From positions 23,643,001 through 23,707,000 of the forward strand of contig OY754467.1 in assembly GCA_963575645.1 (NCBI GenBank): a DNA stretch of 64,000 nucleotides. Direction: 5' to 3'. The notes below the pieces were generated by a model. It was not told the origin of the DNA, did not search any database, and saw only the letters and a list, made by a program, of their open reading frames with translations. Source of the stretch: Xanthostigma xanthostigma. Lineage: Eukaryota; Arthropoda; Insecta; Raphidioptera; Raphidiidae. The position numbers and the translations under genes are program-made. Positions 3,188-46,938 of the stretch are shown one piece after another; position 1 is the first letter of the stretch, and each line of letters starts with the position of its first letter.

Positions 3188-3446
3188 TGAGACGATTACC
3201 TTTGGACTTTTTCGGATAAACTCACGTAATCGTCTCGTAATATAATGTACTATCTGTGATAAGTATTGAGATTGTAGTGAACCAGTTTTTTTAGAATGTA
3301 GGTACACACAGAAAATTTCTGATATCTTAATGTGATTGTAATTGTTAAAGTGAAAAATAATCAATCAAACGACACATGCAAAAAAGAAATTTGGATCGGT
3401 CTCACCAAGTACTCCAGATTCTGACTGATGTGGTTTAAAGGATTGT
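3188..3446 (-). repeat. Diverged LTR relic, same family as the SMAP-carrying element
   Basis: The reverse complement matches the last roughly 260 bp of the 536-bp LTRs at 35723-36258 and 37753-38288. The match includes the terminal hairpin (GAGACGATTA paired with TAATCGTCTC) and the segment reading GGAGTACTTGGTGA. Substitutions and small indels are frequent, so it is older. The 5' half of the LTR is missing, and no primer-binding site follows the LTR end at 3188. It is therefore a truncated 3' LTR or solo LTR. Confidence 0.8.
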
Positions 3447-3754: not shown

Positions 3755-3837
3755 TTTCCCAATGATGTTGGCGGGAATCGAACCCGAGACCCTGCCATTA
3801 TTGGCCTTACGTCTTAACCGCTCGGCCACCGGGCGGT
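3755..3837 (-). repeat. tRNA-derived sequence (Ser/Leu-like promoter boxes)
   Basis: The minus strand carries an A box (TGGCCGAGCGG) and a B box (GGTTCGATTCC) at tRNA-like spacing. The acceptor arms do not pair convincingly and no anticodon stem is clear. It is probably a SINE head or tRNA pseudogene, followed on its 3' side by the A/T-rich tail at 3590-3725. Confidence 0.55.
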
Positions 3838-4584
3838 CACAGTATATCGCTATTATTGTCGTATAGAAGTATTATATGGATGATACGAAAAATTGATAAG
3901 ACGAAAGTCGCATGGTCACAGAACTATAAAACTTGGAAAGTGGCCTCTTATACACGGCGGCATATGGGAGAGAGGCAAAATCAATAGATAATAGAGATTC
4001 GTAGGACGGAGATGCGTTGATTTGCTTTTATTATGTGAATTTTATTATTTATTTTATTTTATGTGCGGAATTTAGCACAGAAGAGAATCTCTAACGAGAT
4101 TCTCCCATATAATATTAACAATTGATACTTTTCTACAATCTAGGGTAGTGGTCACCAAATGGCGATCGCAGGCAAGTTTTTCATGGACTGTGGTGAAATT
4201 GTGTATTTTCAGAAAATAATAAATAATTATTCTCAGAAAATAATTAGAAATCAGACACCAAATATCATAATAAATATTTTATCCACTTCATTTCACGGTA
4301 TCGATTGTGTTTTGCACATAAGATGACAAAAGATTCCAAAGAAACGTTTTCTACGCAAAACAAGTACTCTAGTTGTAGACGAGTTGGTAACTCGGTGGAA
4401 GGAGAGTAGAAGGAGTTGGGTAGGGGTTTTAAGTTTTCTGGATCGCGAGAATTCAATACTGTTTCTAAACAAGCCCACAGGAAAAATCATTGGGGATCAG
4501 TGATGTAAAGGGTGGTGAACTACTCGTGTGTAGGTATAAATTGAGCTTAGCATGTAAAATCATAGACAGTTTTCTAAGATTGAA
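3838..4584. other. No gene recognised
   Basis: This stretch is AT-rich. The overlapping short frames at 4265-4490 (-) have no domain. Nothing else is supportable. Confidence 0.55.
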
Positions 4585-5648: not shown

Positions 5649-6493
5649 GAGTGAAAAAATAACTCTAATAATTTAGAGTGATGATGATCCTGTTTCAATG
5701 TTGGAAGATTAAAAAGGAAGAATCCTGGTGGCATAGGATCGATGAAACAAAGCAAATACTGAAGGTTTTTATTGCATTTTATTGTCTGACGTTTCGGCAA
5801 TCTTTATGCCATCTTCGGAGAATCTAGAAGAAAAGTTTTAAATTATTGTTGTTGCAGTTGTTTTTGTTGAAGTTAATTGATCTTAAAGTTGTTATTGTTA
5901 AAATTATTGTTGTTAAAATTAAAGTTAAAAAATTGGAAGTAAAAATAAATAAACTTACCAATGCTGTCTCTTTTCTCAGTATTTTTGTTATGTATAAAAT
6001 AAATTAAAATATGAAATGTCATCAAAAGGTATTAAAATTACTATTTTTCTTGAAAAACGACTTGATTTTTACTAAAAACTGTATAAATGTGTCTATGTTA
6101 CTTGCACATTTATACAGTTTTCAGTAAAAATCAAGTCGTTTTTCAAGAAAAATAGTAATTTTAATACCTTTTGATGACATTTCATATTTTAATTTATTTT
6201 ATACATAACAAAAATACTGAGAAAAGAGACAGCATTGGTAAGTTTATTTATTTTTACTTCCAATTTTTTAACTTTAATTTTAACAACAATAATTTTAACA
6301 ATAACAACTTTAAGAACAATTAACTTCAACAAAAACAACTGCAACAACAATAATTTAAAACTTTTCTTCTAGATTCTCCGAAGATGGCATAAAGATTGCC
6401 GAAACGTCAGACAATAAAATGCAATAAAAACCTTCAGTATTTGCTTTGTTTCATCGATCCTATGCCACCAGGATTCTTCCTTTTTAATCTTTC
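5649..6493. mobile_element. PLE-derived inverted dimer (387-bp arms)
   Basis: Arms 5705-6091 and 6105-6491 are near-perfect reverse complements around a 13-bp spacer. Each arm carries the motif CCGAAGATGGC...TTGCCGAAACGTC, pointing outward (left arm on minus, right arm on plus). This resembles the hammerhead-like core in the PLE at 22190-24538. AAAAATCTT at 5640-5648 and 6494-6502 may be the target duplication, which would add an unpaired 56-bp segment on the left. There is no coding capacity. Assignment to Penelope-like elements rests on the motif and the architecture. Confidence 0.65.
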
Positions 6494-6610
6494 AAAAATC
6501 TTAAGCTTAAATTTTGTTTCGATCTGAGCTGTGTGTCATCTAAGCGTCTTTACTCTTAAGCCCAATCAACCACTCATGTTTCCCTTGTATACAAGAATAG
6601 TTATATATAT

Positions 6611-22301: not shown

Positions 22302-22470
22302 AAAATATAAAAAAATAATTAATAATTAGTTTCTATTTACTTTGAATGGAATTCGTGATAGATATTTTTAAAATATAAATATTGAAAAAATAATAACAAA
22401 CAATGTTTTATTATGTAGTCATGGAAATAATTTGAGCACCTATAAAGAAAGAAAAATTATTAAAAACAAA

Positions 22471-23579
22471 TTATTTCAAAATAATATTATATATATTACT
22501 TAAATTTTCCGTATCTAATTGAGCATTGAGAGAATTTTTATTTGATTTTATATGTAACATTTCCGAAATATTTCTTTTAAAAAAATTAGTTTCATTATCT
22601 AAAATTTTTATATCATCCCAATTAATTTTGTGGTCAAGTTCTAATTTGTGTTTAGTTATTACATTATGTTTGTCAGGGATTAATTTGTGATTATTTTGAT
22701 GCTCTTTTATTCTTGTTTTAAGAGCTCTTTTAGTTTGACCAATATAATTCTTAGCACAATTTTCACAATTAATTTTATATACAACATTATGCTTTTGAAA
22801 TTTATTAATTTTATCTTTTCCCTTTTTAATAATTTTATCAAGTTTATTATTAACATTAAAAACAGTTTTTATATTTAAATTTTTAAGAAATGAACTAAAT
22901 TTTATTGAAATATTTTCGAAAAAAGGAATTACTATAAAAGGACAATCAACATTATTAACATTGTTTTGTGAATTATGACTTTTTGTTAATTTATTAATTC
23001 TAATTTTGATAAATTTATTTATAAATTTGAGAGGATAAGAATTGGCAAGTAGGATTTGACGAACTAAATTAAAATTATTTAAGTGAAATTTTGGTTTAGA
23101 TAATAAAATGGATTTATCAATAAGATTATAAACCATAGCTATCTTTTGATTTATTGGATGATTAGAATAAAAATTTAAAACTCTACCAGAACTAGTTGGT
23201 TTATTAAACCAGTTAAATTCAACAATACCGTTATTATTAATAATTAGTGTATCTAGAAAACTAATTTGATTATTATTTTCTATTTCATGAGTGAATTTAA
23301 TTTTAGGGTGAAAATTATTAAATATACAAATCATATAGTTTATTTTATCTTTAGGAATAATACAAAAAATATCGTCAACATATCTGTGATAGGTAATAGG
23401 TATAAAATTAAGATTACCAAAACATTGTTTTTCTAAATCTCTCATAACAAATTCAGCAAAAATTGGAGACAAAGGAGAACCCATAGGAGTACCATCAATT
23501 TGTTGATAGCATTTATCATCAAATAAAAAATATGTGGAATTTAAAATTAAATTGATGGCTATAGTTAATTCATTCCACG
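22471..23579 (-). pseudogene. PLE polyprotein, 5'-truncated: RT (partial) plus GIY-YIG endonuclease
   Basis: This is the coding part of the longer Penelope-like copy. The product would copy RNA into DNA at a nicked target. The frame is open from the dimer junction (about 23579) to the stop at 22471. It has no start of its own; the first Met (23484) lies within the motif DGTPMGSPLSP. Visible RT motifs are FDDKCYQQIDGTPMGSPLSP (motif B region) and YHRYVDDIF, the catalytic Asp pair, about 35 residues later. Earlier RT motifs are lost at the junction. The C-terminal 110 residues hold the PLE-type GIY-YIG nuclease: VVYKINCENCAKNYIGQT, with the CxxC pair, then the conserved Arg in LKTRIKEH. No internal stops occur. 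It is defective by truncation only. Confidence 0.85.
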
Positions 23580-23582
23580 GAA

Positions 23583-24224
23583 TCCATTTTATTATCTAAA
23601 CCAAAATTTCACTTAAATAATTTTAATTTAGTTCGTCAAATCCTACTTGCCAATTCTTATCCTCTCAAATTTATAAATAAATTTATCAAAATTAGAATTA
23701 ATAAATTAACAAAAAGTCATAATTCACAAAACAATGTTAATAATGTTGATTGTCCTTTTATAGTAATTCCTTTTTTCGAAAATATTTCAATAAAATTTAG
23801 TTCATTTCTTAAAAATTTAAATATAAAAACTGTTTTTAATGTTAATAATAAACTTGATAAAATTATTAAAAAGGGAAAAGATAAAATTAATAAATTTCAA
23901 AAGCATAATGTTGTATATAAAATTAATTGTGAAAATTGTGCTAAGAATTATATTGGTCAAACTAAAAGAGCTCTTAAAACAAGAATAAAAGAGCATCAAA
24001 ATAATCACAAATTAATCCCTGACAAACATAATGTAATAACTAAACACAAATTAGAACTTGACCACAAAATTAATTGGGATGATATAAAAATTTTAGATAA
24101 TGAAACTAATTTTTTTAAAAGAAATATTTCGGAAATGTTACATATAAAATCAAATAAAAATTCTCTCAATGCTCAATTAGATACGGAAAATTTAAGTAAT
24201 ATATATAATATTATTTTGAAATAA
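23583..24224 (+). pseudogene. PLE polyprotein C-terminal part (GIY-YIG) in the shorter copy
   Basis: This is the plus-strand partner of the coding region on the other arm. The frame enters at SILLSKPKFHLNNF, just after the dimer junction, and stays open to the stop at 24222-24224. It includes the linker and the whole GIY-YIG domain (YIGQTKRALKTRIKEH). The RT is absent and there is no start codon at the 5' end, so it is not expected to be expressed as a functional unit. The DNA matches the opposite arm closely. Confidence 0.8.
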
Positions 24225-24397
24225 TTTGTTTTTAATAATTTTTCTTTCTTTATAGGTGCTCAAATTATTTCCATGACTACATAATAAAACATTGTTTGTT
24301 ATTATTTTTTCAATATTTATATTTTAAAAATATCTATCACGAATTCCATTCAAAGTAAATAGAAACTAATTATTAATTATTTTTTTTATATTTTTAG

Positions 24398-25049: not shown

Positions 25050-26652
25050 TAGTATAAGAGCCAGTGATCGGCTACCAGTATGTATTTGACCAGACCTGAA
25101 TTTTTACACAGTGAGTCTCCTATACCTACCATACATGGAGTGGGGACTCACTAAGCCCGGAGTGGCCGCCGCGGCCCGTACTCAGGTGCGACAGGTACAA
25201 AATTTGACTAATTTTCAAAGTATTTGACCACGTCTGCCATTTGGAAATTTAATAATATATTATTATTGCTATTGAAAAATAACAATGGCAATCATCGTGG
25301 AAGACAATTTTTTAAGTACTAAAAAATATGAAATTTTGAAAGATATATTTTTCATCACGGATTATTATTCTATTTATTATTTCAAGCAAGTTCCGTAAAT
25401 AAAATTTTTTTCTAAACTTTATAGTTCCGGAAATGTTTAGAAAATAAAAAAAAAATCAGCTGCTCTTTTGTTTTGTAGATCTGTCAGAAAAAAACTAGTT
25501 AAGCAAGCTTTGATTAATTTTTACATGACGTGGAACATATTTTGTAGGTGACCAAGACGACGAATAGCAAATATCATATTGAATACTAGCCATTACCCGC
25601 GTCACCTCACGTGATATCAGAAATGTTATTTTTTTTCTTTTACTATATCAAATGTCAATATTTTTGAAGTAGGAATGGTCTCGTCGCCCAATTGGTTGGA
25701 ATTTTTTATTTGTTCCAAAACAAAAATAAAAAATGTCAAGAGAATATAAAAAATTTGAAAAGAAGTTTGACCCTGCAGGCCATCCCTGTAACTTCCCGCT
25801 ATTTTTGAGTTCAAAACGCTCAAAATATATAAAATATAGCAAGAAGTTTATTCGAGCTCAAAAAAAAAACACACTTTGTTACGAAATTTTCGTTCACTAT
25901 ATCTCATGAACAAATGAACAGATTTTGATGCAATTTGCGGCAGTCGACTCAATTTTTTATTCTAAAAAAGTAATTTATTACAGAAAAATCGATCTCATAG
26001 GAATTTTACGAGCAATTTAAAAAAAACACTTTTTTAAAAATTTTTCGTTCACGATATCTCGTGAACAAATGAGCCAATTTTGATGCGGTTTGCGTCGATC
26101 GACGCAGTTTTTTTAGCCTAAGAAAGTAAATTATTACAAAAAAATCGATTTGATAAGAATTTTACGAGTAATTATAAAAAATTACTTTTTTCCTAATTTT
26201 TCGTTCACGTTATCTCATGAACAAATGAACCAATTTTGATCTGGTTTGCGGCGATCGACGCAGTTTTTTTAGCCTAAGAAAGTAATTTATTACAAAAAAA
26301 TCGATCTGATAACAATTTTAAGAATCATTTTAAAAAAACACTTTTTTACGATTTTTTCGTTCACGGTATCTCGTGAACAAATGAACCGATTTTGATGCGG
26401 TTTGCAGAAATCGACGCAGTTTGTTAAGGAGAAGAGCTGATTAGATTTTGGAATTATTCGGTTTAGTAGTTTAGAAAATATTTTACAAAAACAAATTTTG
26501 AAAAATTTTTGAAACTTGTTTTTTTAAGATTTCTCAAAATTTTTTGGGCCGAATCGTTTCAAATTTTCAGGAAGTCTAAGTTCACCAAGATCACGTCAGA
26601 TGCCGCAAACCGCGTTTCAGTCGGACACTCCGTTCAAAAGATATAAAGGGTT

Positions 26653-35630: not shown

Positions 35631-35722
35631 TAAAAAAATTAATACTAAAAGAACATTTTTAAAAACAAGCTTTCATATGCTCTGAAAAGAAGAAAATAAA
35701 CTTTAAATTAAATCAAACCCAT

Positions 35723-36258
35723 TGTAACGATTCAAAACTTTTATATTACATTGTACGTAGTTTAGAGATAATAATTAGAATTGGGTATTTACTGTACTTG
35801 TCTATTTGTTTTGTCACGGCGCGTGTCAATTTTGGTTTTGGCATGTTGAACGACGCAGTGAAATAAAGAAAAAAATATGTTTTTTGTCTGAAAAAAGGCA
35901 GTAAGTTTTAAAAGGTTGAAATAGGATGTATTAAAAATAAGCTGTGAAAAAGTGTTGAAATATTTCCTTTAAACCACATCAGGGAGAATCTGGAGTACTT
36001 GGTGATCTACCGATCCAAATTTCTTTTTGTATGTGTCGTTTAATTGATTATTTTTCACTTTGTCAATTCCAATCACATTAAGATATCAGAAATTTTCTGT
36101 GTGTACATTCTAAGATATCTTGTTAACAACAATTTTATAATAAAACATTGAAAATAAATATTTTAAATTGTTTATTAATTTTATTAAAATTTATTTTAAA
36201 TTATATTACGAGACGATTACGTAAGCTTATCCGAAAAAGTCCAAAGCTAATCGTCTCA
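35723..36258 (+). repeat. 5' LTR
   Basis: TGTAACGATTC...ATCGTCTCA, 536 bp. AATAAA-type signals occur (AAATAAAG near 35862). The 3' end folds into a hairpin of GAGACGATTA with TAATCGTCTC. It differs from the 3' LTR at A35768/G37798 and C36255/T38285. Confidence 0.9.
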
Positions 36259-36260
36259 TT

Positions 36261-36278
36261 TGGCGCCCGAAAAAAGAC
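36261..36278 (+). promoter_or_regulatory. Primer-binding site, tRNA-Lys type
   Basis: TGGCGCCCGA begins two bases after the LTR end. TGG pairs with the CCA tail, and CGCCC is the pattern of tRNA-Lys-primed elements such as gypsy. Confidence 0.75.
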
Positions 36279-36423
36279 TGGACCTTGGAAATTATCCAGA
36301 CTAATACCAAGTGACATTTTGGACATTTTAATAATAATATCAATAATAATTATTATTAAATCAATATCAATCAATTAACTATAAATCAATTTGTTTATAT
36401 ATTATAAAATTTAAGTTATTAAA

Positions 36424-37267
36424 ATGACTACAAAGAGTGAAAAAAAAAGATCGTGCAAAACAAATTCAGGACAAATGTCAACAAGTACTAAATGATTTGT
36501 TAAGAGATGAGGATAATAAATATTGTGTCGATTGCGATACAAAAGATCCTCGTTGGGCATCGTGGAACATAGGTGTGTTTTTATGTATAAGATGTGCAGG
36601 AATACATAGAAATCTCGGCGTTCATATTTTGAAAGTAAAATCAGTGAATCTGGATAAATGGACATGTATCTCAACAGATGGGCAACAGTCGTGTTTGGGC
36701 TGTTTACGAAGCAAATTTGCCCGACCATTTCCGGCGTTCTCAAACGATTCTAGTTTAGAGTCATTTGTGCGCGCGAAATATGAACATAAATAGTATATCG
36801 CCAGAGAATGGGTGCCTCCGGCACTGCCAAAAGTAAATTGGGATAAAGAAGACGACAAATCCAGTGTCGAAAACGCGAAAGTTCAAAGCGAAGTAGAAAG
36901 TTTCTTTAATCAACCGACTCCGACCGAAAAAGAAGAGACGAAATTAACTGAAGATAGCATATTAGCATTATACGGCAATGCTCCGATGCAACAAACCACA
37001 TTTCAAGCAAATTACGCTCCGACAGGGGCAATTCCTGGCTTTCAAGTTCAGCAACAAGCATTTCAAGTTCCAGTTTATCCGACAAACTTGCAAGCTTCCT
37101 CGCAACCGCAGCAAGCTTTTCAAAACCAATCGACATTTGTTTCGCCGCCTCAGAATCAATTTGTGATAGCTCAACAAACGATGCAATCTCAAAACTTCGC
37201 TCCTAATACGGGCGCAGCAGTGCCTAATCCCTTTTACGCTAATCAGCAAGCCCTGCAACAACAGTAA
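36424..37267 (+). pseudogene. SMAP: SMAP-family ArfGAP retrocopy (disrupted), LTR-element cargo
   Basis: SMAP proteins activate GTP hydrolysis on Arf GTPases in clathrin and endosome traffic. The copy starts at ATG 36424 (MTTKSEKK), but a 9-A run is one base out of frame with what follows. From 36437 the ArfGAP domain reads on. The zinc finger is intact (CVDC, 16 residues, CIRC), as is the catalytic Arg in CAGIHRNLGVH. After NLDKWT a short deletion shifts the frame. The +1 frame then shows the family sequence QQMGNSR and AVYEANLPD, and a one-base loss near 36752 restores SNDSSLESF. An AAA/AAG-to-TAG change at 36791-36793 stops the frame within KYEHKKYIAREW. The rest (WVPPALPKVNWDKE, acidic linker, SILALYG, Gln/Pro-rich tail) is open to the stop at 37265-37267. 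It lacks introns, so it derives from mRNA. Full-length function is not possible as it stands. Confidence 0.9.
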
Positions 37268-37740
37268 CTAAGTAGATAGTCAATTGTTTGTGTAAATGTG
37301 CATTCTTATCGGGTGCATAAAGAACTTAAAGCGGAATTATGGACAGTCATAGTTCATATTTAAATTTTACTATGACGCGCTATGACTGTGCATAAATTGT
37401 GATATAATTTTGTTAAATTTTTATTTTTGAAGATGCACAGATCTTTATTTTATACTTTGCAGTAAATATAAACACAATTGTTTTTTTTTATAGTTGAAAA
37501 TTCTTCGAACATTTTATATTGTTTTCAGTTGAAAAGATTGATTAACTAATTTTTTTTTAATTGTTTTGAAATTTTTATGTTTTTTTTTTTAAATATTTTA
37601 TATATTACGTGTAAACGAAGATTAGTATTTTATTCAATGTGGTAAATCTTCGTAAAATTCCAGGTAGTACGTAATTCTCATTTATTTAAGCGGTTCATCC
37701 TCCATGCATTTCTTTATTCTAAAATTGTTCGTATGAACCG
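37268..37740 (+). other. Presumed SMAP 3'UTR within the LTR element
   Basis: This is non-coding and T-rich, following the SMAP stop, with TGTAAATGTGC and A/T tracts. It ends with an inverted pair, AGCGGTTCAT and ATGAACCGCT, just before the polypurine tract. No poly(A) tract of retrocopy type is present. How much of it is host UTR and how much is original element cannot be read directly. Confidence 0.5.
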
Positions 37741-37752
37741 CTGGGGGGGCTA
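37741..37752 (+). promoter_or_regulatory. Polypurine tract
   Basis: CTGGGGGGGCTA directly abuts the TGTAACG start of the 3' LTR, the position of the plus-strand primer. Confidence 0.75.
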
Positions 37753-38288
37753 TGTAACGATTCAAAACTTTTATATTACATTGTACGTAGTTTAGAGGTA
37801 ATAATTAGAATTGGGTATTTACTGTACTTGTCTATTTGTTTTGTCACGGCGCGTGTCAATTTTGGTTTTGGCATGTTGAACGACGCAGTGAAATAAAGAA
37901 AAAAATATGTTTTTTGTCTGAAAAAAGGCAGTAAGTTTTAAAAGGTTGAAATAGGATGTATTAAAAATAAGCTGTGAAAAAGTGTTGAAATATTTCCTTT
38001 AAACCACATCAGGGAGAATCTGGAGTACTTGGTGATCTACCGATCCAAATTTCTTTTTGTATGTGTCGTTTAATTGATTATTTTTCACTTTGTCAATTCC
38101 AATCACATTAAGATATCAGAAATTTTCTGTGTGTACATTCTAAGATATCTTGTTAACAACAATTTTATAATAAAACATTGAAAATAAATATTTTAAATTG
38201 TTTATTAATTTTATTAAAATTTATTTTAAATTATATTACGAGACGATTACGTAAGCTTATCCGAAAAAGTCCAAAGCTAATCGTTTCA
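37753..38288 (+). repeat. 3' LTR
   Basis: 536 bp, 534 identical to the 5' LTR, ending ATCGTTTCA, followed by the CCAT duplication. Confidence 0.9.
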
Positions 38289-38576
38289 CCATTAATTACA
38301 TTATACAATTAATATGATATAAAATCTTTTTGTGTAATTATATTTTATGAAATACACATATGCGTATTATATACATTTTTTCTTAAAATTAATTGTGTCG
38401 AGATAAAGTTACATATTCAATTCTTGTTTAATTACACAACATTTTATAAGATCATATAAATTGTATAATGTAATAAATGGTTGGGTTTGATTTAATTTAA
38501 AGTTTATGTTCTTCTTTTTAGGCATTTATATAAAAGCTTGTTTTTAAAAATGTTTTCTACTATTAATTTTATTTTT

Positions 38577-42104: not shown

Positions 42105-43155
42105 ATAACCAGACTTGAAAAAAATTCTTCCAGCCCGTATCACCTCGCTGCGTTTCGGCAAGGTCACATCTTCCTTGAGCCAGACTCTGGCTACTGAGTC
42201 CTCCATGGAGTGTAAAAGAATTTCTTCGTCACCAACTCTAAAAAAACCTTCCTTTAAGTCCAGCGTGAAGCCGAATTTTTGCAGGAGATCCATTCCTAGG
42301 ATGAAATCGTCGGAGATATCCACCACTATGGTTGAGTTTTTTGTTTCCGATACCGATCGTCATTGTCGCCGATCTATGCGTCAAAATTCTGTCGCCCGCT
42401 GCCATCTTGAGTAGAACTGTCACGGGCAATAGCTTTGTGAATTTATTTACAACACCAGGACGTTTATCGACTTCATCGCATCCGTATCGACTAGTAACGG
42501 AATGGTCTGGTCAGCGACGTTTCCAGCGACAAAAATGCTGGCCGTGCGATCCTGAGGTGACATGGCGTGAGGATGACAGTCCCAACAACGTGGTGTCCGC
42601 ACATCTTGAGGATTTTTCTTGAGACCTATCTCCTTAAGAACCCTCCGCAACAGCTCCTCCAGCTGATCTTCGGCGCTCTCAGTTTCTTTCGTCATTGTTC
42701 TCATCCTTAAGTTTGCTGTTTCTCTCTCTTCTTCTTCATTTATGTCTTCAACGACCACAACTTGTCGTCTTCCTTCTAATATTGTTAATCGTTCTGCAAG
42801 GGTTTCGAATCGTTCATTGACTACCCTTATCTTTTCTTCCACTATTCTTGAATTTTCATTTATATTTTCTAGTTCTTCTAACTGTAGAATCTTCGTGAAT
42901 TTTTGAAATCAGCATGCTCGCATTTTCTTTCTGCTTCCTTGCTATCGCCTGCATCATTGTCAGCATGCTCGATATTGCGACCCCGCTGTCCACCACAGAG
43001 AATGGGAAGCAATCTGGATCCTCACCTTCTGCGAGTAGTGCATTTTTGAGCCGTGTTTATAGCACACTTTTCACGCCTGATGTGTCTAGGTTCCTTTCTT
43101 CTAGCTCCCGTTTTAAATCTGGTACTACCAAATCCTTCAACAGTTTTGTCGTCAT
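42105..43155 (-). pseudogene. Ty3/gypsy gag-protease relic with SAP domain
   Basis: The order on the minus strand follows. From ATG 43155 comes a SAP-like region (LLKDLVVPDLKRELEERNLD, then TSGVKSVL) with an in-frame stop soon after. Then comes a charged coiled-coil stretch (EEKIRVVNERFETLAERL). RCWDC follows, the first half of a zinc knuckle that runs straight into protease sequence. The aspartic protease comes next: LLVDTDAMKS replaces the usual DTGA, and near 42330-42250 the flap and C-terminal motif DDFILGMDLLQKFGF is seen. Frame changes near 42450 and 42845 separate the parts. RT and integrase are absent and the copy ends near 42105. The protein would have formed particles and matured the polyprotein. 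It is now defunct. Confidence 0.75.
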
Positions 43156-46789: not shown

Positions 46790-46938
46790 ATTACTTATAC
46801 TTAAATTTTCCGTATCTAATTGAGCATTAAGAGAATTTTTATTTGATTTTATATGTATTAATTGGGATAATATAAAAATTTTAGATAATGAAACTAATTT
46901 TTTTAACAATTAGATACGAAAAATTTAAGTAATATATA

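Follow-up and report, generated by a model that had tools for sequence, protein, structure and literature searches.

The window analysed here, one stretch of 64,000 nucleotides from Xanthostigma xanthostigma, contains a pair of LTRs that enclose a SMAP-related sequence and lie within a palindromic repeat. The features of this locus are as follows.

35632-38573, no strand assigned: palindromic (MITE-like) repeat, split by the element
35719-35722, no strand assigned: CCAT of the left flank, putative target-site duplication
35723-36258, plus strand: 5′ LTR, 536 bp, starting with TGTAACG and ending with CGTCTCA
36259-36423, plus strand: leader, from the 5′ LTR to the SMAP ATG, 22% G+C
36261-36281, plus strand: primer-binding site (PBS)-like sequence TGGCGCCCGAA..., spaced 2 bases from the 5′ LTR
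36424-37267, plus strand: SMAP retrocopy, from the ATG to the LQQQ-stop, placed by SMAP protein alignments
36437-36793, plus strand: ArfGAP domain part of the retrocopy (PF01412, E 8.3e-29)
37268-37740, plus strand: region after the SMAP stop, putatively the 3′ region of the element and/or the SMAP 3′-UTR
37741-37752, plus strand: G-rich tract CTGGGGGGGCTA, putative polypurine tract, abutting the 3′ LTR
37753-38288, plus strand: 3′ LTR, 536 bp, differing from the 5′ LTR at two positions
38289-38292, no strand assigned: CCAT of the right flank

Comparison of the two LTRs showed that 534 of their 536 positions are identical (99.6%), that both have TG...CA termini, and that the mismatches fall at LTR positions 46 (A/G) and 533 (C/T). 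An identity of 99.6% over a 536-bp repeat pair is far above chance expectation, and the LTR pair described by an earlier sequence-only reading of this locus was thereby confirmed. The interior between the LTRs is 1,494 bp long. The PBS-like sequence, also claimed in that reading, does start at 36261, 2 bases past the LTR; it appears similar to the complementary strand of the 3′ end of tRNA-Lys, and its 21-mer had a single match within the window when up to three mismatches were allowed, with 0.00 matches expected from 100 shuffles. The claimed polypurine tract stood in part: a G-rich sequence does adjoin the 3′ LTR, but it consists of a run of seven G followed by CTA and is purine-rich in part only. 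The SMAP part has a G+C content of 41%, between a leader of 22% and a 3′ stretch (37268-37752) of 26%, and the 5′ junction with the SMAP mRNA would lie inside the leader.

A Pfam scan covered seven plus-strand pieces, taken from a list of 20 stop-to-stop frames in the leader and 3′ region. The result showed no gag-pol match in these pieces, and their only matches were weak and below the cut-off (Clarin-2, 0.018; zf-C3H1, 0.093). No further stop-free frame of at least 130 aa was found within the element interior. Within the scope of these scans, the SMAP sequence stands in place of gag-pol, as had been proposed. ARAGORN and Rfam gave no hits anywhere in the window, and a bacterial promoter model, irrelevant to a eukaryote, made 4 predictions in the LTR where 3.4 were expected.

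The assignment of the interior to the SMAP family was upheld by several searches. Besides the Pfam match of the ArfGAP part, the best PDB match, obtained with a 72-residue piece, was SMAP1B (E 2.6e-34), and a protein search, in which 1905 of 2186 candidates were at E ≤ 1e-3, had insect SMAP1 among its top named entries (120 matches listed). Among 157 proteins, the unbroken ArfGAP pieces were closest to Chrysoperla (97 of 105 residues), with beetles further down. For the C-terminal part, a search (188 of 316 candidates) showed, among the 120 matches listed, none that was nearly identical along most of it, and no Pfam family was matched by the second SMAP piece (36794-37267) or by a frame-3 piece with stops read as X. 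A frameshift-tolerant alignment was made against a profile of 122 SMAPs, which were picked from the 157 proteins for beginning with M and containing the motifs CIRCAG and ILALY (35 left out). The copy matched from profile position 1, and the profile alignment stopped at 36994; tblastn with the Tribolium protein extended the match to the LQQQ before the stop ending at 37267 (E 9.7e-75, 44% identity with gaps). The copy contains no intron-like insertions relative to SMAP proteins, so the description of it as intronless is true in that sense only, the comparison being made at the protein level and not with the host gene. Taken together, it is well supported that a host SMAP mRNA-like sequence is carried by an LTR element.

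The SMAP sequence is a dead fragment: it has about three frame-disrupting indels and one stop, most of its central region is missing, and its C-terminal tail was not seen. In the alignment, the A-run at 36440-36448 is longer by about 4 nt, about 14 nt net are lost near 36664 (one extra base against a 5-residue gap), and a single nt is lacking near 36744; in addition, an in-frame TAG stands at 36791-36793. The spacing between the NWDKE-like and ESFFNQ-like patterns is 15 residues in the copy, compared with a minimum of 85 and a median of 109 in the natives (70 of the 122 with both patterns). A conserved C-terminal tail ends in the form N-[ILVM]-W in 79 of the 122 natives, and inspection by eye of all three forward frames past the stop revealed no such tail. 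A full-length open SMAP reading frame is absent, and a functional SMAP gene was ruled out because of the stop and the frameshifts.

The decay of the passenger was then compared with that of the LTRs. In the 140 ArfGAP columns aligned, 89 are at least 98% conserved and the copy differs at 7 of these 89, of which one is the stop and one (column 86) adjoins an indel and is doubtful. The same comparison in native leave-one-out controls (n = 122) gave a mean of 0.45 such changes and a maximum of 5, and it is to be read as a comparison with the SMAPs of other species, not with the host's own, in which one native control reaches 5. At the rate seen in the LTRs (2 differences in 1,072 LTR bases), about 0.5 changes are predicted in the 267 nt of these 89 codons, whereas the copy has six or seven; the binomial P is 3.1e-4 for 7 of 89 codons and 1.2e-3 when column 86 is dropped. 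Likewise, there are three indels in about 438 nt of the SMAP copy versus none in the LTRs (P = 0.024). The simplest reading of this mismatch is that the passenger was probably dead before the present copy was inserted, implying that the chimera had probably moved before. The excess of interior decay could also reflect gene conversion between the LTRs, a SMAP copy that was already dead at capture, assembly errors, above all in the A-run, or a host SMAP that itself has unusual residues. Of the capture of a host SMAP proposed by the sequence-only reading, the SMAP sequence inside an LTR element stands, and the path from a single capture to the present locus appears more complex than proposed, as the passenger seemingly decayed before insertion.

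We give a probability of roughly three in four to the following explanation of the whole locus, namely a non-autonomous LTR retrotransposon with a SMAP copy replacing its own coding region, which arose by template-switching capture of SMAP mRNA and was afterwards propagated as a non-autonomous passenger. Packaging would probably have brought SMAP mRNA together with element RNA, and the reverse transcriptase would have jumped between the two templates, taking up SMAP sequence that begins close to the start codon and reaches the LQQQ codons but not the C-terminal tail. The resulting chimera would have retained the LTRs, the PBS and the G-rich tract, and with these kept, the proteins of an autonomous relative could recopy it in trans. 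We infer at least two rounds of such movement: the SMAP part would have decayed in an earlier genomic copy, and the present locus would be a later insertion into the palindromic repeat. The scheme builds on what was observed directly, namely the organisation of the element, the SMAP identity of its interior, the disabling changes and the unequal decay of LTRs and interior. A bolder extension, which we regard as speculative and unlikely, is a multi-generation trans-mobilised family in which the captured SMAP forms the body of the element and stays mobile after the death of the gene, with transcripts that could target the native SMAP via small RNAs.

A simpler history would comprise a single recent capture and one insertion, with the damage arising during reverse transcription or after insertion and the LTRs being alike by chance or gene conversion. 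The 99.6% identity of the LTRs and the finding of one chimera only in the window are consistent with this, and template jumps could plausibly yield large deletions. The six or seven changes at near-invariant codons, against about 0.5 predicted (P between 1.2e-3 and 3.1e-4), argue against it, and we consider it improbable. A decay older than the LTRs would also be accounted for if the source was itself a decayed SMAP pseudogene whose transcript was captured, or if a processed pseudogene was inserted into an element that later lost gag-pol. The internal poly(A), which the sequence-only reading had named as evidence against its own proposal, was looked for among interior A-runs of at least 7 and is absent; the sole such run is the 9-A run at 36440, within the coding part. 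The lack of poly(A) speaks against a LINE-made pseudogene, and a processed pseudogene nested in the element was rejected as the main reading on this ground. With no poly(A) tract past the SMAP part and no Pfam gag-pol remnant in the seven pieces scanned, a pseudogene source in either form is very improbable. The locus could also belong to a long-established, stable family whose SMAP part serves, or once served, the element carrying it. A passenger seemingly older than the last insertion and an ArfGAP region that remains recognisable are in keeping with such a family, but the frameshifts and the stop in the ArfGAP region oppose a normal product from the present copy, and this history has hardly any probability in our judgement.

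The insertion site itself was examined in the palindromic repeat, whose arms pair 35632-35721 with 38482-38573 and 38288-38340 with 38429-38481. When the flanks were joined with a single CCAT, the alignment with the opposite arm had a 4-nt gap there (score 173); when both CCAT copies were kept, it was gap-free there (score 187), and the partner arm reads CCCAACCAT. This suggests that either the CCAT repeat predates the insertion, or the arms carry an unrelated 4-nt indel exactly there, the latter being possible because the arms differ by several more small indels in the same alignment. A CCAT duplication had been claimed at this site. The letters do flank the element on both sides, but from the opposite arm of the palindrome, their status as a target-site duplication is doubtful.

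One further LTR-like feature was found in the window.

3188-3442, minus strand: diverged LTR relative, 3′ half (75% identity with gaps)

The LTR of the element has therefore at least one relative within the window. No PBS follows this related LTR, which is perhaps a solo or truncated LTR. A tRNA-like (SINE-like) stretch was seen by eye about 320 nt upstream of it (about 3762-3840, minus strand), where ARAGORN was silent. No autonomous partner was seen in the window, nor was a second copy of the chimera, the interior matching only itself and one 44-bp A/T-rich stretch (3662-3621). The conserved 3′ end of the LTR had no matches in viral_contigs and none in genome_contigs, collections of viral and prokaryote records that may omit this genome.

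Several other repeats were observed in the window. An inverted repeat at 22309-24386, presumably Penelope-like, has two 806-nt arms that are 100% complementary and 466 nt apart and contains RT and GIY-YIG open reading frames with Pfam matches below the cut-off; over 60 bp at 46798-46857, a similarity of 98% to it is seen. The best match for a Penelope-type open reading frame had 52% identity. A near-perfect long hairpin lies at 5701-6495 (391-nt arms, 99% complementary, 13-nt spacer), and a satellite-like repeat with 156-bp spacing occurs in separate blocks at 582-881 and 25865-26439. An open frame at 42447-42908 on the minus strand has an end that by eye is like a retropepsin motif (LLVDTDA), and it had no Pfam match.

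LTR-mediated retroposition via template switching has been described in animals; according to the available text of the same source, every polymorphic retrocopy in Drosophila was attributed to this route, and both retroposition routes have been described in mosquito (PMC5408686). Template switching was also proposed for Pxyfem of the diamondback moth Plutella xylostella (PMC9674220, as excerpted), and duplicates flanked by transposable elements can amplify as pseudo-TEs, the LTR-mediated family CG17604_r being named in the accessible portion of PMC8277862. Judged by what these portions of the three papers report for Drosophila, mosquito and diamondback moth, the claim that such a capture is rarely seen so clean in an insect was overstated. 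Our literature search turned up no paper on a SMAP1/ArfGAP retrocopy with an insect retrotransposon, so this SMAP capture has no published record within that search; captures of its kind are already known. An element with readable ends, a primer site and a host passenger provides a specimen for how frequently host mRNAs are copied by LTR elements in insects, and whether such chimeras go on spreading becomes testable because an older passenger sits between LTRs that look young.

The locus shares with the metazoan LTR-mediated retrocopies (Tan et al., 2016, as related in the available parts of PMC5408686, PMC9674220 and PMC8277862) a host mRNA copy joined to LTR-element sequence and an attribution to template switching. 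Those cases include polymorphic Drosophila retrocopies and the amplified CG17604_r family, whereas here the LTRs, the PBS and the G tract are readable in one element and the passenger has decayed beyond the LTRs. Pxyfem, the W-linked PxyMasc retrocopies, likewise combines in an insect a spliced mRNA copy with LTR-retrotransposon sequence; as far as the available text of PMC9674220 goes, Pxyfem retains gag fragments, has no identified LTRs, is present in 11 copies and has a role in sex determination, whereas the SMAP element has intact LTRs and no gag recognised in the pieces scanned. Maize Bs1 is also an LTR element with host gene copies, but it belongs to a plant and contains portions of three cellular genes, in contrast to the one insect gene here (PMC5408686, in the text at hand). 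In rice and sorghum, the captured genes are likewise inside full-length LTR elements, and in rice a higher percentage of them turned into pseudogenes; the portion of PMC3726574 available gives 672 and 1,343 such plant cases, respectively, compared with the single insect locus described here.
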